Assembly: GCA_947589435.1 (NCBI GenBank)
Contig: CANQBI010000015.1
Coordinates: 1 to 40,320, forward strand
Reading direction: 5' to 3'
DNA: 40,320 nt
DNA from: an uncultured Bacilli bacterium
Lineage (GTDB): Bacteria > Bacillota_I > Bacilli_A > RF39 > UBA660
Below, in pieces: positions 10,775 through 40,047 of this stretch. The first letter of the stretch is position 1; the number at the start of each line of letters is the position of its first letter. A program made the position numbers and the translations under genes. The notes beneath the pieces were generated by a model. It was not told the origin of the DNA. It made no database searches and saw only the letters and a list, made by a program, of their open reading frames with translations.

Positions 10775-10803
10775 TTGACAAGTATGCCTCATAAAGTTAT
10801 AAT
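10775..10803 (+). promoter_or_regulatory. consensus promoter of surface cassette 1
   Basis: TTGACA (10775-10780), 17 bp, TATAAT (10798-10803): a full consensus match. The leader to the first gene is about 105 nt. Confidence 0.8.
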
Positions 10804-10913: not shown

Positions 10914-11618
10914 ATGATAAAAGAAAGATTAAAAAAATTGTTAAATATAAAAGTTATATATTTTGTTATATGTGTTTTTGTCATAACTTTATTTATATGT
11001 TTAAAAAATACTCATGCTTATTATAATTATGAAACTGGACCTGTGCCAATCTTTACTGGAAAAGTAGGGAACTTTGCTGGTAAAGGAGATACTTCTCCTT
11101 TAACTGATAGAACTACTGATGTTAATCTAATGTTTTATGTTCAAGATGTAACTAATCCTAAAAATTATACTATTATGGAAGGAACACCAGCATTAGTATC
11201 AGGATATGTGGTTAATGATAAAAAGAGTAATTGCATTCCCACAAGTGGAACTTATACAATGCATGAAGATAAAGTATATTCTATAGCAAGTGATGGACTT
11301 GTAACTGTAGAAGTATCCCAAAATAGCCCCAATCAAGTAGTATGTCGAATATATTATGATTATGGAAAAGATTTAACCCAAGATGATGTAATAGTATTTG
11401 CTTTAATTGAAGATGACTTAGGAATGGTAATAAAAAATAATAAACATTATACAATGACAGAAGATATACCAACAAGTGGTTATACATATGACAGTACTAT
11501 ATCAAATTGTAATACCGAAAATAATGTTAAAACAACGATAAGTTATGATACAAGTAAAGGCTTTTCATTTGAAACAGATGGACCAAATATATGTTATGCA
11601 TATTTTAATAAAAATTAA
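10914..11618 (+). CDS. surface protein with N-terminal membrane anchor, cassette 1 gene A
   Basis: A 234-residue protein with a short basic N-terminus, one membrane helix (about 13-30), then HAYYNYETGPVPIFTGKVGNFAG, a segment nearly repeated in the paralog at 23.6-24.2 kb. The exported part contains two similar modules each with two Cys (SNC...VVCRIYYDY at about 100-150; SNC...NICYAYF at about 190-232), probably disulfide-stabilised beta domains. Family not recognised. It lies 14 bp before a larger surface protein with a related two-Cys module, and the pair recurs later, so the two products probably act together at the cell surface. The start follows AAAGGAGG. Confidence 0.8.
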   Translation: MIKERLKKLLNIKVIYFVICVFVITLFICLKNTHAYYNYETGPVPIFTGKVGNFAGKGDTSPLTDRTTDVNLMFYVQDVTNPKNYTIMEGTPALVSGYVVNDKKSNCIPTSGTYTMHEDKVYSIASDGLVTVEVSQNSPNQVVCRIYYDYGKDLTQDDVIVFALIEDDLGMVIKNNKHYTMTEDIPTSGYTYDSTISNCNTENNVKTTISYDTSKGFSFETDGPNICYAYFNKN

Positions 11619-11632
11619 GGAGTTGAAAATAT

Positions 11633-12838
11633 ATGAAAAAGAAAGTATTTAATGTAATATTAATAATATTAACAATAGGAATGATATATGAAGGCTATAG
11701 TTATTTTAATACAAATCCAAATACAAAGGTCTTAGAAGATATCAAAACAGTAGATGTATTAAATAATAAAGATAAAACACTATCCATAAAAGTTCAAAGC
11801 GGAGGAGAAAATGACTTTGAGTGGTATGAACCAGAAGATAGAAGTAAGTGGCCTGATAAAGCACAATATACATATGTAGGGACAAAATGTGAAGATGCAA
11901 GTGGAGCAGATGTAGGAGATACAAAACCATATGTAACATTTAACGAAAACACATATACAGCGACAATAACAACTAAAAAGACAATATACTGTACATTATA
12001 CTTTGGAAAAGGAAGGCCAGCATTAGAAGTGTTAGATGCTCAAGGTGGGCAATATTATGGCGGAGGTAAGCAAGGAAGTAGAACAGCAGTCCAAGGATTA
12101 TATAGATTTAAAGGAACAAAAGATCAAGTAACAAATAACTTCATATGTATAGGAGGTTCATTAAATCCAGATAAATGTGGAACAGAGTCAAGTAATAAAT
12201 ACTTATATAGAATAATAGGAATAACAGACGGAACAGAAGCAAGCACCCTTGGCTTAGAAGCAGGCATGTTAAAAGTAATAAAGGTAATACCATCAAGCAC
12301 ACAGCAAGCTTGGTCAACTAATTATACATATGATATAGATTGGGATAATGGAAATAATACAGTAAGAGTATCAATAAACGGAAGTGGTTTTTATAATGAC
12401 CTAGAAGTTGGAATACAAAATATAATCCCGGCAGTAAATTGGTGGAAAGGGAAAAAAACAGGAAACGCTAGTGGTGCAGAAACAAAGACAAAAACAACAG
12501 GACAATATCAAATAGGGTTAATGTATCAAAGTGACTATTATAACTCATGGACATATGCAACAAACACCAATAGTTGGCTTCATATAACCAACACAATGAG
12601 TGGAAAAGTAGATACATATAAAAATACCTGGGAATGGACCATGACTTGGTATGGCCTCGATGGTGGGGGTAACCGTGCGTGGCCTGTGCGTTCAGATGGA
12701 GCCTTGGAGACGTACAATGGCGTTACGGTTGGGGGAAATGCTGTTCGCCCAGTCTTCTATCTACCATCCACAACAGGACTAGTAGGTAGTGGATCAGAAT
12801 CTAGTCCATACGTAATAACAAATTTACCAACTACTTAA
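11633..12838 (+). CDS. surface protein with C-terminal variable patch, cassette 1 gene B
   Basis: A 401-residue membrane-anchored protein: N-terminal helix (about 5-24), one two-Cys module (TYVGTKC...IYCTLYFGKG, about 82-125), then a conserved body (YYGGG, FKGTKDQVTNNFICIGG, YRIIG, KVIPSS) and a C-terminal domain ending VRPVFYLPS. The last part resembles DUF6273/C-type-lectin-like folds that end in a VRPV strand; this assignment is by eye. Residues about 338-370 are encoded by a roughly 60% G+C stretch in an otherwise A+T-rich gene and differ sharply from the paralog at 24.2-25.4 kb while both flanks match. That is expected of a targeted-diversification site. Start supported by AAGGAG. Confidence 0.8.
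   Translation: MKKKVFNVILIILTIGMIYEGYSYFNTNPNTKVLEDIKTVDVLNNKDKTLSIKVQSGGENDFEWYEPEDRSKWPDKAQYTYVGTKCEDASGADVGDTKPYVTFNENTYTATITTKKTIYCTLYFGKGRPALEVLDAQGGQYYGGGKQGSRTAVQGLYRFKGTKDQVTNNFICIGGSLNPDKCGTESSNKYLYRIIGITDGTEASTLGLEAGMLKVIKVIPSSTQQAWSTNYTYDIDWDNGNNTVRVSINGSGFYNDLEVGIQNIIPAVNWWKGKKTGNASGAETKTKTTGQYQIGLMYQSDYYNSWTYATNTNSWLHITNTMSGKVDTYKNTWEWTMTWYGLDGGGNRAWPVRSDGALETYNGVTVGGNAVRPVFYLPSTTGLVGSGSESSPYVITNLPTT
12646..12742 (+). other. candidate variable region 1 (DGR-like target)
   Basis: A G+C-rich core flanked by sequence shared with the paralog: GAATGGACCATGACT upstream and GTTCGCCCAGT, TTCTATCTACCATCC downstream. Codons such as GCG, CGT, GGC and CTC are rare elsewhere in this gene. 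The paralog core differs in length and in most surface-residue codons but keeps GCG TGG, GTG and TTG anchors. Confidence 0.55.
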
Positions 12839-23392: not shown

Positions 23393-24219
23393 ATGAAGAA
23401 AGAAATTAAAAGAATAGTATTATATGTAGCAATACTTACATTAGTAGTTCTAAATACCCAAATCGGGGGGGGGGTTATTGTAATACCCTAATATCTTTAG
23501 TATTCATACCAAAATATAACTTTAAAGATAAACTTATAAATTTAAAAAATAAATTAAAGAAAAAAGAACTAATATTGGGAATATTCGTATTAGTATTTTT
23601 TGCGTTGGTATTAATAAATGTTGCCATTAATAAAACACACGCTTATTATAATTATGAAATGGAACCTGTTCCAATATTTACATCTAAAGTCGGAAATTTT
23701 GCTGGTGAAGGAGAAACAGTAAAAGAAGGACCGTTAAGTGGTAAAAGTACTGATGTAAATGTAATATGGTATACTCAAATGCCAGATAATCCAAAAAAAT
23801 ATAAAGAAAATAAAGAAGTACCAGTAACAGGATTTAACTTAAATCAAGACATATCAAATTGTTATCCAAAAGATAATGAAGAAGGAACAACATATACAGA
23901 AGATTATAAAATAAGTGAAGATGGAACAGTAGATATAACAGTATCCGAAACTAAACCTAATCAAATAGTATGTAGATTATATTATGATCGAGATAAGATA
24001 TCCGATGTAATAGTATATGCTTATATTCAAGATACAAGTGGAGATAGAGAATATGAAGGCAATAAATACAAGATGTCTAGTACTATACCAACAGGAAAAG
24101 AATATCTAGGAAGTAAATGTTCCAATGAAAAAGTTGCAACCAATATAAATTACAATGATACAGATGGATTTATGATAGATACAGATGGCCCAAATACCTG
24201 TTATGCATATTTTAAATAA
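23393..24219 (+). CDS. surface protein of cassette 2 gene A, out of frame at a G10 tract
   Basis: ATG 23393, behind AGAGGT, encodes KKEIKRIVLYVAILTLVV (a membrane helix) and reaches a run of ten G (23465-23474). As written, translation stops at 23489 after 32 codons. With 8 or 11 G the frame is open to 24219, giving about 275 residues: two membrane helices, then HAYYNYEMEPVPIFTSKVGNFAG and two two-Cys modules, as in the paralog at 10914. This is the pattern of a phase-variable gene in the OFF state. Alternatives are a sequencing error in the homopolymer, or initiation at an internal codon such as TTG 23575, which would give a form resembling the paralog; that codon has no good ribosome site. 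Confidence 0.7.
23465..23474 (+). repeat. G10 homopolymer in coding sequence
   Basis: Ten consecutive G inside an A+T-rich coding region. Slipped-strand mispairing would switch the frame. Confidence 0.85.
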
Positions 24220-24229
24220 GGGAGGATAT

Positions 24230-25423
24230 ATGAAAAAAGATAAAATATTGACTATTATAATAATTATAGTAGGTATACTAATACTAGGAGAAAGTTATAA
24301 CATTATAAAATCATTAAGTATAAAAAATGAAGTAACAGAGGATATAAAAACAATGGATGTATTCAGTAAAAATGATAAATCACTAGCTATAATGATTCAA
24401 AGTGGAGGAACAAATGACTTCGAATGGTACGAAGCAGAAGATAGAAGTAAATGGCCGGATAAAACAAAATACACTTATGTTGGAACAGAATGTACCGATA
24501 GTGAAGGAGTAAGCGTTGCAAGTAAAAATATTTTAACCTTTGATGAAACAACATACACAGCCCACATTAAAACAAAACAAACCATATATTGCACATTATA
24601 CTTTGGAAAAGGAAGACCAGCTCTAGAAGTACTAGATAATCAAGGAGGAACATATTATGGAGGAGGAAACAAAGGAAGTAGAGTAGCAGTAGAAGGATTA
24701 TATAGATTTAAAGGAACCAAAGACCAAGTAACAAATAACTTCATATGTATAGGTGGTTCATTAAATCCGGAAAAGTGTGGTACTGAATCAAGTAATAAAA
24801 ACTTATACAGAATAATCGGAGTAACAGATGGAACAGAAGAAAGTACTCTAGGATTAGATAAAGGAATGTTAAAGGTAATAAAAGTAATCCCATCCAGTAC
24901 AAGTCAAGCATGGTCAACAAATGATAGTTCAAATATAGATTGGGATAATGGAAGTAATACAGTGAGAACATACTTAAATGGAACATTTTATAATAGTTTA
25001 GAAGCAGGAATAAAAGGAATAATACCAGCAGTAAAATGGTGGAAAGGTGACAGAACAAACGCAACATCTAGCGGAGCAGAAATAAAGACAGCCACCACAG
25101 GACAATATCAAATAGGTTTAATGTACGCAGGAGATTATTACAACTCATGGGGTTATGGTTCAAACACCAATAGTTGGCTTCATATTACCAACACAATGAT
25201 TGGAAAAACATCGACATATAGTAGCACAACCGAATGGACCATGACTAGAAAAGGCTCAGGCTATGCGTGGGGTGTGACTACGAGCGGCTCCTTGGCCTGG
25301 GCCTATAGTGTGAGCAATCCGCTTGCGGTTCGCCCAGTTTTCTATCTACCATCCACAACAGGATTAGTAGGTAATGGAACAGAATCTAGCCCTTACGTAA
25401 TCACAAGTTTGAGCAATGCATAA
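24230..25423 (+). CDS. surface protein with C-terminal variable patch, cassette 2 gene B
   Basis: A 397-residue paralog of the protein at 11633-12838 with the same order: N-terminal helix (about 5-23), two-Cys module (YVGTECTD...IYCTLYFGKGRP), YYGGGNKGSR, FKGTKDQVTNNFICIGG, YRIIG, KVIPSS, WLHITNTM and a terminal VRPVFYLPS domain. Long blocks are almost identical between paralogs, while the segment after EWTMT (about residues 340-366) is different and encoded by G+C-rich DNA. GGGAGG before ATG 24230 sets the start; an open frame from 24185 runs into the upstream gene and is not used. If gene A is switched by its G tract, this downstream gene could be affected through coupling or polarity. Confidence 0.82.
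   Translation: MKKDKILTIIIIIVGILILGESYNIIKSLSIKNEVTEDIKTMDVFSKNDKSLAIMIQSGGTNDFEWYEAEDRSKWPDKTKYTYVGTECTDSEGVSVASKNILTFDETTYTAHIKTKQTIYCTLYFGKGRPALEVLDNQGGTYYGGGNKGSRVAVEGLYRFKGTKDQVTNNFICIGGSLNPEKCGTESSNKNLYRIIGVTDGTEESTLGLDKGMLKVIKVIPSSTSQAWSTNDSSNIDWDNGSNTVRTYLNGTFYNSLEAGIKGIIPAVKWWKGDRTNATSSGAEIKTATTGQYQIGLMYAGDYYNSWGYGSNTNSWLHITNTMIGKTSTYSSTTEWTMTRKGSGYAWGVTTSGSLAWAYSVSNPLAVRPVFYLPSTTGLVGNGTESSPYVITSLSNA
25247..25327 (+). other. candidate variable region 2 (DGR-like target)
   Basis: 81 bp with 48 G or C by my count, between the constant GAATGGACCATGACT and GTTCGCCCAGT. Alignment with region 1 keeps GCG TGG, GTG and TTG codons; several differing codons share a third base (CGT/TAT, CCT/GGT, CGT/ACT), as if two leading positions had been randomised. 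Confidence 0.55.
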
Positions 25424-31575: not shown

Positions 31576-31705
31576 TATTATATTTCCTTAATAATTTAAT
31601 TATATAATAAATGATACATAAAGTGAAGGAGCAATTTTTAAAAAAATTAAATATTCGTTAATTTCTTTTGAAAATTAACGCATTTTTATGGTTTTGCGAT
31701 TTTTA

Positions 31706-31734
31706 TTGACAAACATGAGCACATATTGTACAAT
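31706..31734 (+). promoter_or_regulatory. promoter of the small RNA upstream of the Abi gene
   Basis: TTGACA (31706-31711), 17 bp, TACAAT (31729-31734). Confidence 0.75.
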
Positions 31735-31740
31735 ATTATT

Positions 31741-31786
31741 GAAGTTCAGAACTGACAAGTCACTACGGTGCGTCAGTCTTTTTTTT
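31741..31786 (+). ncRNA. short hairpin-terminated RNA upstream of the Abi_2 gene, possible RNA antitoxin
   Basis: From the expected start near 31741 a transcript of about 46 nt ends at ACTGAC (31751-31756)...GTCAGT (31772-31777), with an inner CAC-TACG-GTG stem, followed by eight T. The hairpin would stop transcription before the Abi gene, which has a separate extended -10. AbiF-type Abi_2 proteins are reported to be paired with a conserved non-coding RNA acting as antitoxin. An attenuator leader is the alternative. Confidence 0.6.
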
Positions 31787-31824
31787 ACAAAATTTAAAAA
31801 TTATATACAAAAGCGCAATAAATG

Positions 31825-31833
31825 TGATACAAT
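31825..31833 (+). promoter_or_regulatory. extended -10 promoter of the Abi_2 gene
   Basis: TGATACAAT (31825-31833), just before GGGAG (31841-31845). Only a weak -35 (TATACA, 31804-31809) is present. Confidence 0.5.
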
Positions 31834-31852
31834 GATATCAGGGAGCAAAAAA

Positions 31853-32785
31853 ATGATTACAAAACAAAAAGAATATTTATTAATTAATGAACTCATCAGT
31901 AATATAAAAAATAAAGGATTATTTATAAAAGATGAAGAAAAACTAAAAAAATTATTAGAAAGTAATAACTATTATTATATAACTGGTTACAAAGAACCAT
32001 TTAAAATTAATGATAATTATAAACCGAATGTTTATTTTGAAGAAATTTTTACTTTATATCAATTTGATAAAAAATTAAAATTAGTGTTTGCGGAGATTTT
32101 ATTCGAAATAGAGCAAAAAGTAAAAACAGTATTTTTAAATAATTTTAGTGAAAGACATGGATATAAAGAGACTGATTTGTTTAATCCTGATAATTACGAT
32201 ATTAAAAATCCATATTTATCGGAAGTATTAAAGAAATTAAAAGAACAAATTCATTGGTATGGTAAAACTAGCAAATCATACATATATTATAAAAAACATT
32301 ATGGATATGTTCCTATATGGGTGCTAGTAAAAGTGTTATCTTTTGGTATGATTAGAGATTTAATTGTTTGCCAAAAGAATAGCGATAAAGATCATATATA
32401 TAAAAAATTAGTTAATGATAAAAATGTAAAAAACGGAGAAATACCGACATTTTTAGAATTGTTAATTACGTATAGAAATATTTGCTGTCATGATGATAAA
32501 TTAATTGGCTATATACATAATAAAGTAAATATTAAAACAACTAAATATCATCATCAATTTGACTTGCTTAATAATTCAAATGGTTATATTGCAGGTAAAA
32601 AAGATTTATTTGCATCAATAATATGCATAAAATATTTTGCTGATAAAGAGAGTTACTCGAAATTTATCGACAATATTTTGAATCTAATAAAGGAATATAG
32701 TAAAAAAATAAATAGTATAACTAAACAAGAATTGATGAAATATATGTTTTTGCCAAAGGACTTTGAAAAATTAAAATATTTATAA
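31853..32785 (+). CDS. Abi_2 family abortive-infection protein (AbiF/AbiD-like HEPN)
   Basis: About 310 residues. The Abi_2 hallmarks are YYYITGYKEPF (about 42-52), FEEIFTLYQFDKKLKLVF (about 62-80), EIEQKVKT and PIWVLVKVLSFGM, ending in the HEPN RNase motif RNICCHDDK (R-x4-H, about 208-213). These proteins act as RNase toxins in phage-triggered growth arrest; AbiF is also the proposed ancestor of Cas13. The frame extends to 31688 across the small RNA and two promoters, but GGGAG and ATG 31853 give the family-like N-terminus MITKQKEYLLIN. It is a solitary gene next to a hypervariable surface array, as expected of defence cargo. Confidence 0.88.
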   Translation: MITKQKEYLLINELISNIKNKGLFIKDEEKLKKLLESNNYYYITGYKEPFKINDNYKPNVYFEEIFTLYQFDKKLKLVFAEILFEIEQKVKTVFLNNFSERHGYKETDLFNPDNYDIKNPYLSEVLKKLKEQIHWYGKTSKSYIYYKKHYGYVPIWVLVKVLSFGMIRDLIVCQKNSDKDHIYKKLVNDKNVKNGEIPTFLELLITYRNICCHDDKLIGYIHNKVNIKTTKYHHQFDLLNNSNGYIAGKKDLFASIICIKYFADKESYSKFIDNILNLIKEYSKKINSITKQELMKYMFLPKDFEKLKYL

Positions 32786-32943: not shown

Positions 32944-32980
32944 ATTTGTCAAAAATTAGTAAAAATATATCTTGACAAAT
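32944..32980 (+). promoter_or_regulatory. operator-like inverted repeat at surface promoter 1
   Basis: ATTTGTCAA (32944-32952) and TTGACAAAT (32972-32980) are perfect inverted 9-mers 19 bases apart. The right arm contains the -35. The same layout occurs at 35939, 38507 and 40290. Confidence 0.65.
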
Positions 32981-33002
32981 AGAATACGGGGGGGGGTATA
33001 AT
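32972..33002 (+). promoter_or_regulatory. phase-variable promoter 1 (G9 spacer)
   Basis: TTGACA (32972-32977) and TATAAT (32997-33002) are separated by 19 bp, of which nine are consecutive G (32988-32996). Optimal spacing (17 bp) would need seven G. Confidence 0.85.
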
Positions 33003-33030
33003 TAGGACATAGAAAGGAAAGAGGAAAAAA

Positions 33031-34449
33031 ATGAAAAATTTAAAAATGTTTGCAATTGCTGTTATGGCATTCGCTGTAATGGCTATGGGTGTTCATGCTG
33101 CTGCTTGTACAACTGATTGCGTATCTGTTAAAAAAGGTACAGTTACAACTGATTATTCTAATATTCAAGCTGCATTAAGTGCTATGGCATCCGAAGAAGA
33201 CCCATTTACTATTATTGTTAATGGTGACTTTGATGAAACTATTTCAAGTGGTCAAATCAGTATAACTCAAGATGTAACTATTGATTTAGGTGAACATACA
33301 GTTACTTTAAAAACAAATAATATTTGGGTTGAGGGTGGTTCTTTAACTCTTAAAGGAACTAAAGGTACTTTAACTAACGAAGCAACTGCAACTCGTACTA
33401 TGTTAGTTGTTAAAGGTCAAAATTCAAAATTAACTATTGAAAAAGGAGTTACTGTTGCTAATATTGCAACTTCAGGTGCTGCAGGTGCTGTATTAGTTTC
33501 AGGGGATTCTTCTTCAAATAGTTCAAAAGGAAGTTCATTAGTTATTGCTGGTGAAGTTACTTCAAAAACTGGTCATGCTGTTTCTACATATGGTACATTA
33601 GTTGGAGTTACAACTAAAACTGCTCCAGTTGTTACAATTGAAGATGGTGCAAAAATAACTAGTGATGGAGCTGCTGGATTATATCTAGCTGGTTATGCTG
33701 TAACTACAGTTGGAAAAGCTACAATTACTGGTGATACTGGTATTGGTATTAAAACTGGTGTTTTAACATTAAATGGACCTACTGTTACTGGTAATGGTGA
33801 TTTTGCTGCTGTTACTCCTGTTACAGGTGGACTTAACAGTGTTGGTGCTGCTGTACACGTAGAAGGTAACACAGATTATAATGGAACTGCTAAAGTTATA
33901 TTTAATGGTGGTGAATACACAAGTGAAAATGGTAATGCAGTAGTATTAGACTATGCTACAAAAGCTGCTTTAACTGATGATTCAGTTATTAAAGATGGTA
34001 CTTTCACAAGTGGCGAAACTGCTGATGGTAAACAATTAGAAAACATTGCAATTATATTTGGTAATGGTGGTACAGTTGATGAAGATACTGTTAATGAATA
34101 CATTGCAGGATTAGAAAATTTAATTGCTGGTGGTGATTATGTTGGACCAGTAGTTGGAGATATTAAAGTTGGCGATTCTGGAAAAGTTGAAGCTGAAGAT
34201 ATTCAAGCTAAATTAATTGGAGATGCTAAAATTAATACTGATGACGAAGGAAATACAACTGTTGGAGAACCAACTCCAGGAGAACCAGGAACTACAGAAC
34301 CAGGAGATCAAACAACTGGTGATGGAAACCAAGGACCTACAGATAATGTAAAGAACCCAGAAACTAATGATAATATCTTAGTATATGCTGGTCTAGGACT
34401 AGTAAGTCTTGCCTCTGTTGCTTTTACAGCAAAGAAAAGAGAAGACTAA
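33031..34449 (+). CDS. wall-anchored surface protein 1 (phase-variable family)
   Basis: A 472-residue secreted protein. Signal peptide KNLKMFAIAVMAFAVMAMGVHAA (about 2-24) precedes a long Thr/Gly/Ala/Val-rich region of short beta-strand repeats (DLGEHTVTL, GSLTLKGTKGTL, KATITGDTGIGI) typical of a right-handed beta-helix adhesin. A Pro/Glu/Thr/Gly linker (GEPTPGEPGTTEPG) leads to a sorting signal: NPETN, a hydrophobic helix and KKRED. The motif resembles the NPxTN sortase B class more than LPxTG. Only two Cys, near the mature N-terminus. First of at least three tandem paralogs with identical tails. Expression probably varies through the G-run promoter; ribosome site GGAAAGAGG. Confidence 0.88.
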   Translation: MKNLKMFAIAVMAFAVMAMGVHAAACTTDCVSVKKGTVTTDYSNIQAALSAMASEEDPFTIIVNGDFDETISSGQISITQDVTIDLGEHTVTLKTNNIWVEGGSLTLKGTKGTLTNEATATRTMLVVKGQNSKLTIEKGVTVANIATSGAAGAVLVSGDSSSNSSKGSSLVIAGEVTSKTGHAVSTYGTLVGVTTKTAPVVTIEDGAKITSDGAAGLYLAGYAVTTVGKATITGDTGIGIKTGVLTLNGPTVTGNGDFAAVTPVTGGLNSVGAAVHVEGNTDYNGTAKVIFNGGEYTSENGNAVVLDYATKAALTDDSVIKDGTFTSGETADGKQLENIAIIFGNGGTVDEDTVNEYIAGLENLIAGGDYVGPVVGDIKVGDSGKVEAEDIQAKLIGDAKINTDDEGNTTVGEPTPGEPGTTEPGDQTTGDGNQGPTDNVKNPETNDNILVYAGLGLVSLASVAFTAKKRED

Positions 34450-34621
34450 TTAAATAAGTTACCTAATTTTGTTAAATAAATTGTTTAAATAGAAATTTAG
34501 GGACTCGCAAACACCCTAAAATTCATTCTCACAAACCTTTCCACATAACTTGTGGTAATTGTAAAACAATTATTAACAAATTGGTATAAATGAAACATAC
34601 TATTTCGGTAGTATGTTTTTT
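34315..34621 (+). repeat. 307-bp direct repeat, copy 1 (3' coding end plus structured 3' UTR)
   Basis: From the linker codons through the sorting signal, stop codon and 3' UTR. I found no difference between copies at 34315, 37430 and 39913. The UTR holds AATTTAGGG/CCCTAAAATT, CCACA/TGTGG, TAATTGT/ACAATTA and the terminal ACATACTA/TAGTATGT stems. Confidence 0.9.
34595..34621 (+). terminator. terminator of surface gene 1
   Basis: ACATACTA-tttcgg-TAGTATGT, a perfect 8-bp stem, then T6. Repeated at 37710 and 40193. Confidence 0.9.
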
Positions 34622-34631
34622 AGTTAAATAA

Positions 34632-34640
34632 TGATATAAT
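34632..34640 (+). promoter_or_regulatory. extended -10 of the HipA-like gene
   Basis: TGATATAAT with no good -35, 24 bases before the ATG; GAGAGGAG is the ribosome site. Confidence 0.45.
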
Positions 34641-34663
34641 TATAGGTAGAGAGGAGTATTTAT

Positions 34664-35854
34664 ATGAAATGTATACTTATGAATAAAAATATAGAAGTAT
34701 TAGTAGTGGAATATAATGAAACCTCAAAGTTCTTTGATTATATATATGAAGTTAAAAATATTAATTATGCCCCTTATATATTAAAAAGTTTTTATCATGA
34801 AAATGATATTAATAATACTCCTTTTAAAACTAATTTAAGTGAATGGTTTAAAGGTAGAGGTATTCCATCATGGCGAGATAAATTAGATTTATTATTACAT
34901 AGATTAAATATCGTGGCTCCTTATGAGTTATTAGATAAAGCTTTTGGTTTATCTTTATCTGATCAATATTGGTTAAAACCATTTAATAGTGATATTTCTT
35001 ATGATGATATTAATTTCTTTGATAATTTTTTTGATTATGCCGAGTTTATGGAAGCATCTTTATCAACCAATAGTAATCCCATTACTAAAGAATCTTCCTT
35101 GAAAACTCCAAATAACACAACTGATGGTATGCTTAAAAAAGCTTGGATTATAGAAGATGATACAAGATATTTATTAAAGGGCGGTTATAAAAATGAAATA
35201 ATGCAACCTTTTAATGAAGTATTAGCGAGTGAAATATGTAAAAGACTAGGTTTTAATTATGTTCCATATACCATAGATATATATAAAGATATGGTAGTGT
35301 CTAAATGTCCATGTTTTATAAATAAAGATACGGAATATGTTTCTTGTTATCAAATTAAGAATAATATGAAAAGACATGATAATAAAGAAGATTATGAGGA
35401 ATATATTAAAAAGTTAGAAGAACATAATATTGAAAATGCCCGAGAAAAAGTCGAAAATATGTATATTTTAGATTTTCTTATTATGAATGAAGATAGACAT
35501 TTAGGTAATTATGGTATTATTAGGGATGTAAATACTTTGAATTGGCTTGATGTAGCTCCTATATTTGATAATGGTCAAAGTTTAAATATTGAATATTATG
35601 ATGAAGAAGAAGTCCATATATCTGGTAGTGGTAGATTCTTCTATGAAGTTAAACCTTTTGAAGAAATAATTAAAGTAGTAAAAGATTTAAAAAGAATTGA
35701 TATAAGTAAGTTAGATGGTTTAGTAGAGTGGTTTGATAATTTATTACATCAATATCAAAATATAACGAAAATGAGTGATACGAGAATTAATAGGTTATGT
35801 ATCTTACTTAATAGACAGATAAATAAGTTAAAAAGTTTAAGAGAAAGCATTTAA
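34664..35854 (+). CDS. HipA-like protein kinase
   Basis: A 396-residue protein whose C-terminal half carries the HipA kinase core: ATP-lysine strand RYLLKGGYK (about 168-176), catalytic NEDRHLGNYG (about 274-283) and metal-binding APIFDNGQSL (about 297-306). HipA kinases phosphorylate translation components and cause growth arrest; related free-standing kinases occur on mobile islands. The N-terminal 150 residues are not the usual HipA N-domain and no HTH antitoxin (HipB) gene adjoins, so this may be a solitary HipA-like kinase instead of a classic toxin. It sits as cargo between two units of the surface array. Confidence 0.82.
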   Translation: MKCILMNKNIEVLVVEYNETSKFFDYIYEVKNINYAPYILKSFYHENDINNTPFKTNLSEWFKGRGIPSWRDKLDLLLHRLNIVAPYELLDKAFGLSLSDQYWLKPFNSDISYDDINFFDNFFDYAEFMEASLSTNSNPITKESSLKTPNNTTDGMLKKAWIIEDDTRYLLKGGYKNEIMQPFNEVLASEICKRLGFNYVPYTIDIYKDMVVSKCPCFINKDTEYVSCYQIKNNMKRHDNKEDYEEYIKKLEEHNIENAREKVENMYILDFLIMNEDRHLGNYGIIRDVNTLNWLDVAPIFDNGQSLNIEYYDEEEVHISGSGRFFYEVKPFEEIIKVVKDLKRIDISKLDGLVEWFDNLLHQYQNITKMSDTRINRLCILLNRQINKLKSLRESI

Positions 35855-35867
35855 TTATGCTTTTTTT
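35844..35867 (+). terminator. terminator of the HipA-like gene
   Basis: AAAGCAT-ttaatt-ATGCTTT with further T; the stop codon lies in the loop. Confidence 0.75.
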
Positions 35868-35938
35868 CTATTTAGTAATCATTTTAAATAATAGTAATAT
35901 AATATAGAGAAATTATACTTTTTTTGTAAATAAACAAT

Positions 35939-35997
35939 ATTTGTCAAAAATTAGTAAAAATATATCTTGACAAATAGAATACGGGGGGGGGTATAAT
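35939..35997 (+). promoter_or_regulatory. phase-variable promoter 2 (G9 spacer) with operator-like repeat
   Basis: ATTTGTCAA (35939-35947); TTGACA (35967-35972) and TATAAT (35992-35997) with a 19-bp spacer containing nine G (35983-35991). Confidence 0.85.
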
Positions 35998-36025
35998 TAT
36001 GGCATAGAAAGGAAAGAGGAAAAAA

Positions 36026-37564
36026 ATGAAAAATTTAAAAATGTTTGCAATTGCATTACTAAGTATGTTAGTAATGATAAGCAGTGTTGATGCTGCTGAA
36101 GAAAATCCATGTAAAAGTGTTGTTGGTAAAACTGGTATTTATGCAACAATAGATAATGAAACTGGTAAATGCTACGCAACCTTAACAGAAGTTATGACTG
36201 AATTAAACAAAGAGGAAGCAGATTATAAAAGTGCTACAATTAAGTTATATGACACTTTAGCAGTTAGTAGCGAGGTTACTATTCCTGCTGATAAAAGTGT
36301 TACTTTAGACTTAAATGGTAAAAATGTTACTTCCACAGTTACTGCTTTTAAAATTGAAGCTAATGGTAGTTTAACTGTTAAAAGTAGTGGTAGTGCTAAA
36401 ATATCATCTAGTAGTGTAACTAATTTATTCAGAGTTGATGGTGGAAAATTAACTATTGATGGTAAAGTGACTTTAGAAAGTACTGCTGACAGTGTTGATT
36501 CTGCTAAGAAAGCAATGATTGCTGTTAAAGGTAATGATAGTGCTGATAAAACAGAAGTTAATGTTGGTAAAGACGTAACAATTACTAGCCAAAAAGGAGC
36601 TGGCTTAATCATTTATTCAAATAAAAGTACAGATTATGGATACCAAACTGGTGAGTCTACTGGTGTAGTAATTAATGTTGCTGGTACTTGGACAACGGAT
36701 CTTTATACTGTTTCAGTACATGGTCAAGTAACTGAAGGTGATGATGGTAATCCTGTTATTAATGTTTCAGAAGGTGAATTCACTTCAAATAGTACCATAG
36801 CATTCTATGCGTCAGGATATGGTGAATGGAATATTAAAGGTGGAAAAATTACCGGTGCTGACGCTTTCAAATATAGAACTGGTAAAGTTGTAATTGAAGG
36901 GAATGCTTCACTAACTGGTAAGAAAAAAGTAAATTCTGCTCCAACTGGAACATCAGGAGGTACTGCTACTGGTTCTGCATTTGTATTCAGTAAGGATGTT
37001 AGAACTCCAATTGATGCTAATGCAAGTACTGATGTAAAATTCAATGGTGGAACTTTCAAAAGTGATAGTGTTGATGGATATGCAATTTATTTTGAAAGTT
37101 TAGCACGTGTTAAAGATGAAGAAGCAGTAATTGAATTTAATAGTGGTTCTTATGCAAGTAAGGGCAAGAAAGCTGCAATTGGATTCGCTGCTGATGTTAC
37201 TAATGATGTAGAAGATTTTTTAAAGAATCATGAAGGCATTGTTAATGGTGGAGAATATACCAATGACATTACTACTTCATTAGGAAATTATCCAGCAAGT
37301 GCTATTGCTGAAAAGTTAGCAAAAGGTATTGAATTAAAAACTGAAGATGGAAAAGTAGTTGTTGGAAATGGAAACACAACTGCTGGAGAACCAACTCCAG
37401 GAGAACCAGGAACTACAGAACCAGGAGAAACTGGTGATGGAAACCAAGGACCTACAGATAATGTAAAGAACCCAGAAACTAATGATAATATCTTAGTATA
37501 TGCTGGTCTAGGACTAGTAAGTCTTGCCTCTGTTGCTTTTACAGCAAAGAAAAGAGAAGACTAA
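36026..37564 (+). CDS. wall-anchored surface protein 2 (phase-variable family)
   Basis: A 512-residue paralog of the first surface protein. The signal peptide starts identically (KNLKMFAIA) then diverges (LLSMLVMISSVDAA). The body is again a series of short beta repeats (SVTLDLNGKNV, GSLTVKSSGSAKI, GEWNIKGGKITGADAF), consistent with a beta-helix. GEWNIKGG and surrounding text are shared with protein 3 (ATWNIKGG), suggesting mosaic exchange. The linker is shorter (TEPGETGDG), followed by the identical NPETN sorting signal. The same ribosome site and leader are used. Confidence 0.88.
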   Translation: MKNLKMFAIALLSMLVMISSVDAAEENPCKSVVGKTGIYATIDNETGKCYATLTEVMTELNKEEADYKSATIKLYDTLAVSSEVTIPADKSVTLDLNGKNVTSTVTAFKIEANGSLTVKSSGSAKISSSSVTNLFRVDGGKLTIDGKVTLESTADSVDSAKKAMIAVKGNDSADKTEVNVGKDVTITSQKGAGLIIYSNKSTDYGYQTGESTGVVINVAGTWTTDLYTVSVHGQVTEGDDGNPVINVSEGEFTSNSTIAFYASGYGEWNIKGGKITGADAFKYRTGKVVIEGNASLTGKKKVNSAPTGTSGGTATGSAFVFSKDVRTPIDANASTDVKFNGGTFKSDSVDGYAIYFESLARVKDEEAVIEFNSGSYASKGKKAAIGFAADVTNDVEDFLKNHEGIVNGGEYTNDITTSLGNYPASAIAEKLAKGIELKTEDGKVVVGNGNTTAGEPTPGEPGTTEPGETGDGNQGPTDNVKNPETNDNILVYAGLGLVSLASVAFTAKKRED

Positions 37565-37736
37565 TTAAATAAGTTACCTAATTTTGTTAAATAAATTGTT
37601 TAAATAGAAATTTAGGGACTCGCAAACACCCTAAAATTCATTCTCACAAACCTTTCCACATAACTTGTGGTAATTGTAAAACAATTATTAACAAATTGGT
37701 ATAAATGAAACATACTATTTCGGTAGTATGTTTTTT
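37430..37736 (+). repeat. 307-bp direct repeat, copy 2
   Basis: Same sequence and length as 34315-34621, including the terminal stem ACATACTA/TAGTATGT (37710-37731), which terminates surface gene 2. Confidence 0.9.
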
Positions 37737-37750
37737 CTTTAATTTAACAG

Positions 37751-37779
37751 TTGAAAATGTAACAATAGTGATATATAAT
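37751..37779 (+). promoter_or_regulatory. promoter of the small cargo genes
   Basis: TTGAAA (37751-37756), 17 bp, TATAAT (37774-37779). Confidence 0.7.
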
Positions 37780-37815
37780 TAAGTCATCAGAGAGTGTTAG
37801 AAAGAGAAAAATTAA

Positions 37816-38229
37816 ATGTGTATTGGTGACATAATAGTTGTCAAAGATTCGACTAGTTATGATGGAAAAAGAATTGGCTTACATTCGTATGTTATAGTAG
37901 ATAATAAAAAAGGCTATATTAGTGGAGTACCATACGACTTTATAGCGGCAGTTTTTTCTAGTTTTAAAAATAATGCTCAAAGAAATAAAAAAATAAGTTA
38001 TATGGGAAATCAAGAAATAAAGAGAGAAGATATAATTTCTAATAAATTATTAAATAATAAAGATGGTTATATAAAAGCTAATCAATTAACATATTTTAAA
38101 AAAGATGATATAGATTATTATGTTATTGGAAGTGTTAAACCTAAATTTTTAAAAAAGTTATTAAAATTAATTAATAAATTAGAAAAAGAAAATAAAATAT
38201 TTAAAAATTATAATAACATTTTAAAATAA
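37816..38229 (+). CDS. hypothetical protein with MazF/PemK-like N-terminus
   Basis: A 137-residue protein starting CIGDIIVVKD, then a HSYVIVDNKKGYISG strand pair, similar in layout to the SH3-like barrel start of MazF/PemK toxins (GDIV.V...VIVSN). The rest is Lys-rich and ends in a helical tail (KKLLKLINKLEKENKIFK). The MazF resemblance is weak and by eye. It is followed 13 bp later by a small acidic-basic protein, so a two-gene toxin-antitoxin-like module is possible but not shown. The ribosome site is poor (AGAAAGAG). Confidence 0.65.
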   Translation: MCIGDIIVVKDSTSYDGKRIGLHSYVIVDNKKGYISGVPYDFIAAVFSSFKNNAQRNKKISYMGNQEIKREDIISNKLLNNKDGYIKANQLTYFKKDDIDYYVIGSVKPKFLKKLLKLINKLEKENKIFKNYNNILK

Positions 38230-38242
38230 AAGGAGGTCTAAA

Positions 38243-38422
38243 ATGAATTGGTTAGAGAAAATATTCGGTATTAAGAAAGATGTAGAGTATGAAAGTGAAG
38301 CCGACTTAGAGCGAGTAAAATGGACTAGAAAAGATCCAAGTCAAGTAGATAAGGATATGCCTAAATGGCTAGTTAAATTCTTTGAAGAAAATGAAAAGGA
38401 AGAGAGAAATAGTAAAATTTAA
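38243..38422 (+). CDS. small protein, possible partner of the preceding gene
   Basis: A 59-residue ORF behind a perfect AAAGGAGG (38229-38236): MNWLEKIFGIKKDVEYESEA then WTRKDPSQVDKDMPKWLVKF and a charged end. No family recognised. It is co-transcribed with the preceding gene and its stop codon lies in the loop of a terminator. A 3' fragment of the same gene is at 32792-32843, so the module was once present in more than one place in the array. Confidence 0.75.
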   Translation: MNWLEKIFGIKKDVEYESEADLERVKWTRKDPSQVDKDMPKWLVKFFEENEKEERNSKI

Positions 38423-38436
38423 AACTATTTCTTTTC
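38406..38436 (+). terminator. terminator of the small cargo module
   Basis: GAAATAGT (38406-38413) and ACTATTTC (38424-38431), then CTTTTCTT-like T-rich sequence. Confidence 0.7.
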
Positions 38437-38506
38437 TTATAGGTAATTATTTAAAAAACTATTAATATAATATAAGGAAATTATATTCTTTTTGTAAATA
38501 AGCGAT

Positions 38507-38564
38507 ATTTGTCAAAAATTAGTAAAAATATATCTTGACAAATAGAATACGGGGGGGGTATAAT
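38507..38564 (+). promoter_or_regulatory. phase-variable promoter 3 (G8 spacer) with operator-like repeat
   Basis: ATTTGTCAA (38507-38515); TTGACA (38535-38540) and TATAAT (38559-38564) with an 18-bp spacer containing eight G (38551-38558), one fewer than in promoters 1 and 2. Confidence 0.87.
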
Positions 38565-38592: not shown

Positions 38593-40047
38593 ATGAAAAA
38601 TTTAAAAATGTTTGCAATTGCTGTTATGGCATTCGCTGTAATGGCTACTGGTGTTCATGCTGTTGATTGTGATACTTCTGCTGTTGCTAAAAGTGAAACA
38701 AAATGCTACACAGAAGCACAATTAATTGCAAGTTCTGCCGAAACAGATGCATTATATGCTGATAATGTTATCACATTAATTAAAAATGTAACATTAACTT
38801 CTAATCTTGAAATCGATAAGAATATTACTATTGATTTAGGAGATGATTTTGTTATTACATTTAATACTGCTAATCAAGGAATAGTTCTTAAAGATGGTGG
38901 TAATTTAACATTAAAAGGAACTGGAGAAGTAAAAAATACAGCTGGTACTAGTGCTTTAATCGATGTACAAGCTGGTGCAACATTAAATGTTGAAGGATCA
39001 GTTATATTAAACAATTTATCAACTGGTAAAGAAACTCCAGCTATTATGATTAATGGTACTGATGGTAAAACTACTGCTGTAACAGTAGGAAAAGATGTAA
39101 CTATTAAATCTGCTGCTTATGGTTTAGTGGTTGGAAAGGCTTCTGCTGATAGCGCTCCAGGTGTAACAGTTAATATGGCTGGTACTTGGGAAACTGAAGG
39201 CTATGTTGCAAAAGTTAATGGAACAATTAAATATGCTTCTAAAGCTCCAGTTATTAATGTAGAAGAAGGTACTTATAAATCTGCTAAATCTACTGCATTA
39301 TATGCTTCAGGATACGCTACATGGAACATTAAAGGTGGTTCTGTAGAAGGTGCTCAAGCTGTTGAAGTTAGAAGTGGTAATGTAAATATTAGTGGAGGTA
39401 CTTTTAAAGGTACAAATCCTAAAGCTGGTGGAACAGGATTTACTGGTGCTAATGCTACTAAAAATGGTAGTGCATTAATAGTTAAGCATGTTGCTAATTA
39501 CGAAGAAGCTAAACGCATTAACTTAAATGTAACTGGTGGAACATTCACAAGTGAAAAAAGTTATGCAATGTATATTAAAGATTTAGGTGAAAAGGGTACT
39601 CTATCTCTTTCAAATGTTAAAATGACTAGTGGAAAAGAAGGAAGTACTCAATTAGCTGCAATTAAGATTGATGATACTAATGACGCTGCTACATCATTTA
39701 TTGAACATCATAATGATATGATTGTTAGTGGTGAATTTACTGGTGATGTTTTTGAAAAAGTAGAAACATCTTCTGGTACTTTTGCTACACCTGCAGAATT
39801 AGCTGCTGACCTAGTTAAGGGAGAACTTAAAACTGAAGGTGGAAATACTACAGTTGGAACTCCTTCTGATGAAGGACAACAACCAGGAACTACAGAACCA
39901 GGAGATCAAACAACTGGTGATGGAAACCAAGGACCTACAGATAATGTAAAGAACCCAGAAACTAATGATAATATCTTAGTATATGCTGGTCTAGGACTAG
40001 TAAGTCTTGCCTCTGTTGCTTTTACAGCAAAGAAAAGAGAAGACTAA
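38593..40047 (+). CDS. wall-anchored surface protein 3 (phase-variable family)
   Basis: A 484-residue paralog of surface proteins 1 and 2. Its first about 18 codons are nearly identical to protein 1 (KNLKMFAIAVMAFAVMATGVHA), then the mature part diverges (two to four Cys near the N-terminus, beta repeats such as GNLTLKGTGEV, TVGKDVTIKSAAYGL, ATWNIKGGSVEGAQAV). The linker and NPETN sorting signal are as in protein 1. The body shares modules with protein 2 but the signal peptide with protein 1, which points to recombination among units. Regulation as for promoter 3; its 18-bp spacer is closest to optimum of the three. Confidence 0.88.
   Translation: MKNLKMFAIAVMAFAVMATGVHAVDCDTSAVAKSETKCYTEAQLIASSAETDALYADNVITLIKNVTLTSNLEIDKNITIDLGDDFVITFNTANQGIVLKDGGNLTLKGTGEVKNTAGTSALIDVQAGATLNVEGSVILNNLSTGKETPAIMINGTDGKTTAVTVGKDVTIKSAAYGLVVGKASADSAPGVTVNMAGTWETEGYVAKVNGTIKYASKAPVINVEEGTYKSAKSTALYASGYATWNIKGGSVEGAQAVEVRSGNVNISGGTFKGTNPKAGGTGFTGANATKNGSALIVKHVANYEEAKRINLNVTGGTFTSEKSYAMYIKDLGEKGTLSLSNVKMTSGKEGSTQLAAIKIDDTNDAATSFIEHHNDMIVSGEFTGDVFEKVETSSGTFATPAELAADLVKGELKTEGGNTTVGTPSDEGQQPGTTEPGDQTTGDGNQGPTDNVKNPETNDNILVYAGLGLVSLASVAFTAKKRED

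Follow-up and report, generated by a model that had tools for sequence, protein, structure and literature searches.

We analysed a stretch of 40,320 nucleotides from an uncultured Bacilli bacterium of the RF39 lineage (contig CANQBI010000015.1, hereafter the window), which is contig C15 of a 62-contig, 1.44-Mb assembly (genome G000). The window contains three promoters in which a run of eight or nine G residues lies in the spacer between the −35 and −10 boxes, each of them upstream of a gene for a surface-type protein, and promoters of this design recur in related genomes. Slipped-strand phase variation is in our judgement the best explanation of these poly-G promoters, with a probability of about 0.7. 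The anatomy of the promoters at 32972, 35967 and 38535 is real and well supported, and it is part of a larger finding than was seen in the original prediction, an earlier note made from the sequence of the window. The three promoters are the following.

32972..33002, + strand: poly-G promoter 1, with TTGACA at 32972-32977, AATAGAATAC, G9 at 32988-32996 and TATAAT at 32997-33002; spacer 19 bp
35967..35997, + strand: poly-G promoter 2, with TTGACA at 35967-35972, G9 at 35983-35991 and TATAAT at 35992-35997; spacer 19 bp
38535..38564, + strand: poly-G promoter 3, with TTGACA at 38535-38540, G8 at 38551-38558 and TATAAT at 38559-38564; spacer 18 bp

All three have perfect −35 and −10 boxes and the same ten-base fixed part, AATAGAATAC, and at each of them the −10 box lies 28 nt from the start of the surface-type gene (starts at 33031, 36026 and 38593). 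Tract lengths of G9, G9 and G8 and spacers of 19, 19 and 18 bp, as given in the original prediction, were exact when the sequence was rechecked. The 142 nt upstream of the promoters form a repeat family. Promoters 2 and 3 and a further copy at position 53564 of contig C4 agree in all 95 flanking bases compared and have tracts of G9, G8 and G9, and thus the tract is the sole difference there. Another copy of the upstream region is cut by the end of the window, and the array of promoters and surface genes may go on from this end (40320) into contig C5.

40290..40320, + strand: 5′ part of an apparent fourth copy of this upstream promoter region, truncated by the contig end at ...ATATATCTTG

The window is 27% GC, and GGGGGGG has 12 matches in it against 0.59 expected, a number reached in 0 of 100 shuffles. 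Runs of eight or more G were observed 4 times in the window and 21 times in the genome, where a first-order estimate gives about 0.08 and about 3, respectively. A chance origin of the G runs was ruled out by the shuffles and by the first-order expectation. One more long run in the window, a G10 at 23465, had gone unmentioned in the original prediction.

The spacers were then compared with those of ordinary consensus promoters. Among 62 ordinary promoters of this genome (70 listed, minus 6 poly-G and 2 double-counted rows), 37 had a spacer of 17 bp, in agreement with the spacing taken as optimal in the original prediction, and in the stretches sampled from the genus, with 15-19 bp allowed, 17 bp was found in 38 of 69. 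The 70 recognisable poly-G spacers of the genus stretches, with 13-22 bp allowed, were distributed as 15 bp (4), 16 bp (11), 17 bp (3), 18 bp (12), 19 bp (35), 20 bp (4) and 22 bp (1). A 17-bp spacer was thus found in 3 of 70 poly-G promoters versus 38 of 69 ordinary ones (Fisher, 8e-12; this P value and the one below are too small because paralogues are not independent). Spacers of one relative, G016, were mostly below 17 bp (mode 16) and those of the other species mostly 18-19 bp (mode 19). In the assemblies, most poly-G promoters therefore deviate from the common spacing by one or two bases, some being shorter and others longer. Across the family, 17 bp was found in 7 and 19 bp in 46 of 106 listed sites, in a scan that required at least G8 and may therefore miss 17-bp forms with G7, which the genus scans could show.

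The genes downstream of the window promoters encode proteins with a common signal and a common anchor.

33031..34449, + strand: surface protein 1, 472 aa, with an N-terminal hydrophobic signal and a C-terminal anchor made of NPETND, a hydrophobic stretch and KKRED
36026..37564, + strand: surface protein 2, 512 aa, with signal and anchor as in protein 1 and a divergent middle
38593..40047, + strand: surface protein 3, 484 aa, of the same family as proteins 1 and 2, with a strand-rich predicted model

Two of these proteins share 38 and 43% identity with the third, and none of the three had a match in Pfam or NCBIfam. A hydrophobic N-terminus was encoded downstream of 69 of 70 poly-G promoters versus 12 of 41 ordinary promoters (28 more ordinary promoters had no open reading frame, ORF, within reach), which upholds the link to surface genes drawn from the window. 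A P value for this comparison would be inexact, since the sites were selected for their tracts and include many paralogues. Together with the anchor of the window proteins and two sortase matches in the genome, this suggests that poly-G promoters drive the expression of surface structures. An AlphaFold model of surface protein 3 (three sequences) was strand-rich with a mean pLDDT of 67. A Foldseek search with this model gave no match at E ≤ 0.001; many of the leading rows, above that cut-off, were beta-helix proteins by name, a hint that the ectodomain could be compatible with a beta-helix.

The surroundings of all 21 runs of at least eight G in the genome were inspected. Seven were spacer tracts (three in the window and one each on C2, C4, C23 and C5), 13 lay near the start of the coding sequence in another surface family, here called class B (two of these copies being truncated shortly after the tract), and one, on C42, was cut by the contig end and is preceded by a similar hydrophobic stretch. 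Therefore all 20 classifiable runs are at genes with a hydrophobic, secreted-type start. Contig C5 is truncated just upstream of its tract; it starts with C-G9-TATAAT, followed by a gene of the same surface family as in the window. G9 is the length of 18 of the 21 tracts. The genus stretches gave a similar picture for runs of at least seven G: of 94 classified, 89 matched one of the two surface-gene designs, as the 70 spacers described above or as 19 class B tracts, and the other five comprised a variant of class B, a promoter truncated at a contig end, a site resembling a promoter and two unrelated runs.

The window has one class B gene, and also a tract-free relative of the class B gene and its partner, preceded by an ordinary promoter.

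23393..23491, + strand: start of the class B gene, a short ORF whose hydrophobic segment leads into G10 (23465-23474), shortly before a stop
23575..24219, + strand: downstream part of the class B gene (THAYYNYE...), out of frame with the N-terminus at the assembled tract length
24185..25423, + strand: DUF6273 protein (PF19789, 7.1e-07), partner of the class B gene
10775..10803, + strand: ordinary 17-bp consensus promoter, which precedes two genes (10914-11618 and 11633-12838) that are related to the class B pair and have no tract

The tract-free pair (10914-12838) is 44% and 68% identical to the class B pair. With 8 or 11 G, the frame of the window copy runs on into the ORF at 23575, and 10 of the 13 class B copies of the genome are open only in this 8/11 register, the others being two copies cut by contig ends and one, on C8, open in another register. 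By these predicted translations, the class B frame depends on tract length, with one register in three open. Class B was found by one search pattern in 3 of 38 genus genomes. The 11 copies in the two relatives had tract lengths of 9, 9, 9, 9 and 8 in one and 9, 9, 9, 9, 10 and 11 in the other. Over the three genomes 2 of 24 copies were in frame, both of them in relatives, which is below one third (P = 0.005).

Recurrence across relatives was confirmed at the level of genus and family. With one assembly per species, the perfect poly-G promoter pattern was present in 18 of 38 genus genomes, and runs of at least eight G in 35 of 38. These runs numbered 645, of which 21 were in the genome of the window and 624 in the 37 relatives, the latter counted, for the most part, without a reading of their context. 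Single genomes of the genus have between 0 and 49 of them (G001, G004 and G018 versus G016, G021 and G005), and all six genomes named here have mutS1 and mutL matches over the cut-off. The layout in G016 is mostly TTGACT or TTGATT, CTC, G7-G9, TATAT and then TATAAT, mostly with a 16-bp spacer. In the sampled stretches, the tract-length peak was 8 (range 7-9) in G016 and 10-12 in G273.

In the family, the pattern was found in 34 of 386 genomes and 25 of 150 genera, including the genome of the window, by a scan that allowed at most two bases between tract and −10 box. A sample of 149 genomes of the phylum, which all belonged to one class, contained the genome of the window, which matched, two others of its family, which did not, and 146 from other families, none of which matched (family versus other families of the class: Fisher, 1.5e-5). 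A reversed-pattern control gave 0 matches in the own-genome, genus, family and 149-genome scans. A scan of named genomes, restricted to spacers of 17-21 bp, found at least 118 stretches scattered over other families and phyla, a measure of range and not of frequency; one of these loci had a second site with a spacer of 15 bp. Among the matches listed, an ORF was present at 104 of 122 sites, and 80 of these 104 had a hydrophobic N-terminus, a count made without a control set. Similar poly-G spacers precede genes for secreted or anchored proteins at Streptococcus, Gemella, Streptobacillus and spirochaete loci, and several Clostridia loci are also alike, again among the matches listed.

Tracts of this kind are known from other bacteria. 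In Neisseria meningitidis, porA, fetA and opc carry a homopolymer tract between −10 and −35 which is thought to alter sigma-factor binding (PMC2791445). The likeness lies in the homopolymer in the spacer and the surface gene downstream; those loci belong to a Gram-negative pathogen and are experimentally supported, whereas the present tracts are many per genome, in low-GC Bacilli, and known from sequence. In Propionibacterium (Cutibacterium) acnes, a Gram-positive bacterium, the gene PPA1880 for a secreted protein has poly-G in the spacer of its putative promoter, and the protein was secreted with a spacer of 18 nt and not with 20 or 23 nt (PMC3224659). Unlike here, that is one locus, with a correlation over three strains and an alternative frameshift reading offered in the same paper. 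Both cases bear out the precedent for slippage in a promoter spacer on which the original prediction had drawn. In Bordetella, tract length influences the transcription of fim2 and fim3 (PMC1891110); fim2, fim3 and fimX resemble the window genes as several paralogous surface genes with a homopolymer in the promoter region, and differ in that the tract consists of C, lies within an element that contains a fim box and is longer (up to C19).

Class B has a parallel in Bifidobacterium breve, a Gram-positive gut commensal, where an intragenic G tract fuses two ORFs of a surface structure, a sortase pilus. At one such locus a sequence-verified mixture of 37% G11 and 59% G12 was found in culture (PMC9187656). 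Promoter-spacer G tracts are also mentioned in that paper. Unlike here, the pilus switch of B. breve comprises two loci. In Campylobacter jejuni, one strain had 29 polyG/polyC loci of seven or more (PMC4965091), and measured tract lengths were G8-G12; its phasome is described mainly as one of reading-frame switches, whereas the three tracts of the window are in promoters. A general survey of homopolymers has also been published (PMC2831843). No report of poly-G promoter switches in this lineage was found in the open-licence literature searched, which is a part of the whole. The kind of mechanism is thus already known, mainly from pathogens, and the novelty lies in the scale and the host, a repertoire of many loci throughout this lineage of Bacilli.

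In the mechanism that we propose, the promoters would be of the sigma-A type and the G run in their spacer would be prone to slippage. When the DNA is replicated, slipped-strand mispairing would add or remove one G, change the distance between −35 and −10 by 1 bp, and thereby alter promoter strength. At the window promoters, a spacer of 18 bp (G8, as at 38535) is predicted to be nearer the ON state, while 19 bp (G9) would be weak and 20 bp (G10) OFF. This prediction for G8 and G9 is made because tract-free relatives of these genes use 18 bp, a copy with an interrupted tract in G032 has a spacer of 18, and PPA1880 is secreted at 18 nt. Seven upstream regions in the same gene families were found to lack a tract. 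Four of them had a consensus promoter, always with an 18-bp spacer and in two cases of identical sequence; the other three had no recognisable consensus promoter, one of them having only weak 17-bp matches. The tract would have a second use in class B, where a G run near the start of the gene would put it in or out of frame. Since the surface proteins have a common signal and anchor and divergent middles, a switching population would be a mosaic of surface states. Independent switching of each unit, with combinatorial surface states as suggested in the original prediction, would be in keeping with this mechanism, and the cell might benefit from it.

Several observations weigh against switching within a population. 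In the assembly, none of the 13 class B copies is in frame (12 have G9 and the window copy G10), so that the two states were not both observed in this genome. The tract differed in two of nine pairs of copies with identical flanks and had the same length in seven. G9 was found in 39 of 59 promoter sites, a narrower spread than a fast switch need show. The G tract differed in 25 of 84 close paralogue pairs, and in the flanks of these tracts A/T runs at least six bases long differed in 9 of 26; in a cleaner set of sites the corresponding counts were 37 of 123 for G tracts and 23 of 53 for A/T-run indels. The idea that G tracts are more changeable than nearby runs was thus not borne out. The length difference between sister promoters, called direct evidence of instability in the original prediction, comes down to one copy that is off by one base, next to A/T runs that vary as often or more. 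To these points are added the overstated Fisher values and the family scan that may pass over 17-bp forms, as described above. Finally, mutS1 and mutL matches were over the cut-off in 33 of 38 genus genomes each, including the genome of the window, so that slippage should be damped, and any slippage would happen despite mismatch repair. These matches also rule out lost mismatch repair as a cause in this genome. C. jejuni, by comparison, presumably does without this mismatch repair.

Much of this evidence would also be expected if the tracts affect promoter strength but change at the pace of strain divergence, tuning expression between strains with no switching within a population. The mismatch-repair genes, the narrow length spread and the A/T runs all fit such slow polymorphism, and G/C-tract variation in P. 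acnes tracks clades and was taken as slow accumulation in the study that described it (PMC4746626). What speaks against it is the lack of a detectable tie between tract length and the relatedness of copies: pairs with less than 15% flank divergence differed in 37 of 123 cases versus 41.9 expected (permutation P = 0.13), in a test of limited power on the 100 of 108 tracts with full flanks. This result fits a quick turnover, and slow change is also compatible with it. In addition, promoter 3 differs in its tract from promoter 2 and from the C4 copy, although the flanks are identical, and class B lengths range from 8 to 11 within a group of three species. We regard slow polymorphism as unlikely, and slipped-strand phase variation as the better account of the same data.

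It is still less probable that the tract is a fixed structural element, kept for its DNA shape or for a bound regulator that makes a spacer of 18-20 bp work, with a length that is no switch. The spacer mode of 19 bp over much of the family would suit this explanation, as would the position of the tract, which in perfect-consensus matches abuts the −10 box or lies within one or two bases of it. However, G016 has mostly 15-17 bp with G7-G9 and a −10 box some five bases further down, the tract-free relatives manage with 18 bp and no long G run, and the same type of tract occurs inside coding sequence, where a change in length is a change of frame. That the run lengths are consensus noise or poly-G from dye chemistry is barely credible: the lengths were all taken from assemblies, most of which are drafts, a contig end is about 20 bp or less away from 4 of the 21 genome runs, and short-read trouble at G tracts is documented (PMC9187656), but the runs are exactly placed between conserved boxes in dozens of assemblies, which rules out the dye artefact, and in the run spectra of G016 and G273 runs of 6 are few and are followed by a peak that is specific to the genome.

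A more specific form of slipped-strand phase variation can tentatively be proposed, to which we give rather less than even odds. Nearly all long tracts of this genome, in both classes, would rest at G9, from where the loss of one G would mostly lead towards ON. The resting length would be set by a slippage equilibrium and not by selection at each locus, resulting in a default-OFF repertoire of about 20 genes, of which one or a few would be ON at any one time, and relatives would behave likewise at other resting lengths (G8 in G016, G11-12 in G273).

If the tracts switch, large phasomes would not be a trait of pathogens, and assemblies of such bacteria would represent one surface state of many. 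From the names of their records, these species are presumably harmless residents of the gut. Existing metagenome reads would allow the question of switching to be addressed.

Other features of the region were also noted. The 3′ ends of surface genes 1 and 2 carry a perfect repeat.

34314..34613, + strand: 300-nt repeat, copy 1, covering the 3′ end of gene 1 and downstream sequence, 100% identical to 37429-37728
37429..37728, + strand: 300-nt repeat, copy 2, covering the 3′ end of gene 2 and downstream sequence

This repeat suggests a recent duplication or gene conversion, and it hints at gene conversion or cassette exchange as a second path to surface variation. Between the surface genes lies a HipA-like kinase gene (34664-35854), with a match below the Pfam cut-off, and a gene resembling Abi_2-type abortive-infection genes (31688-32785) is located just before them.

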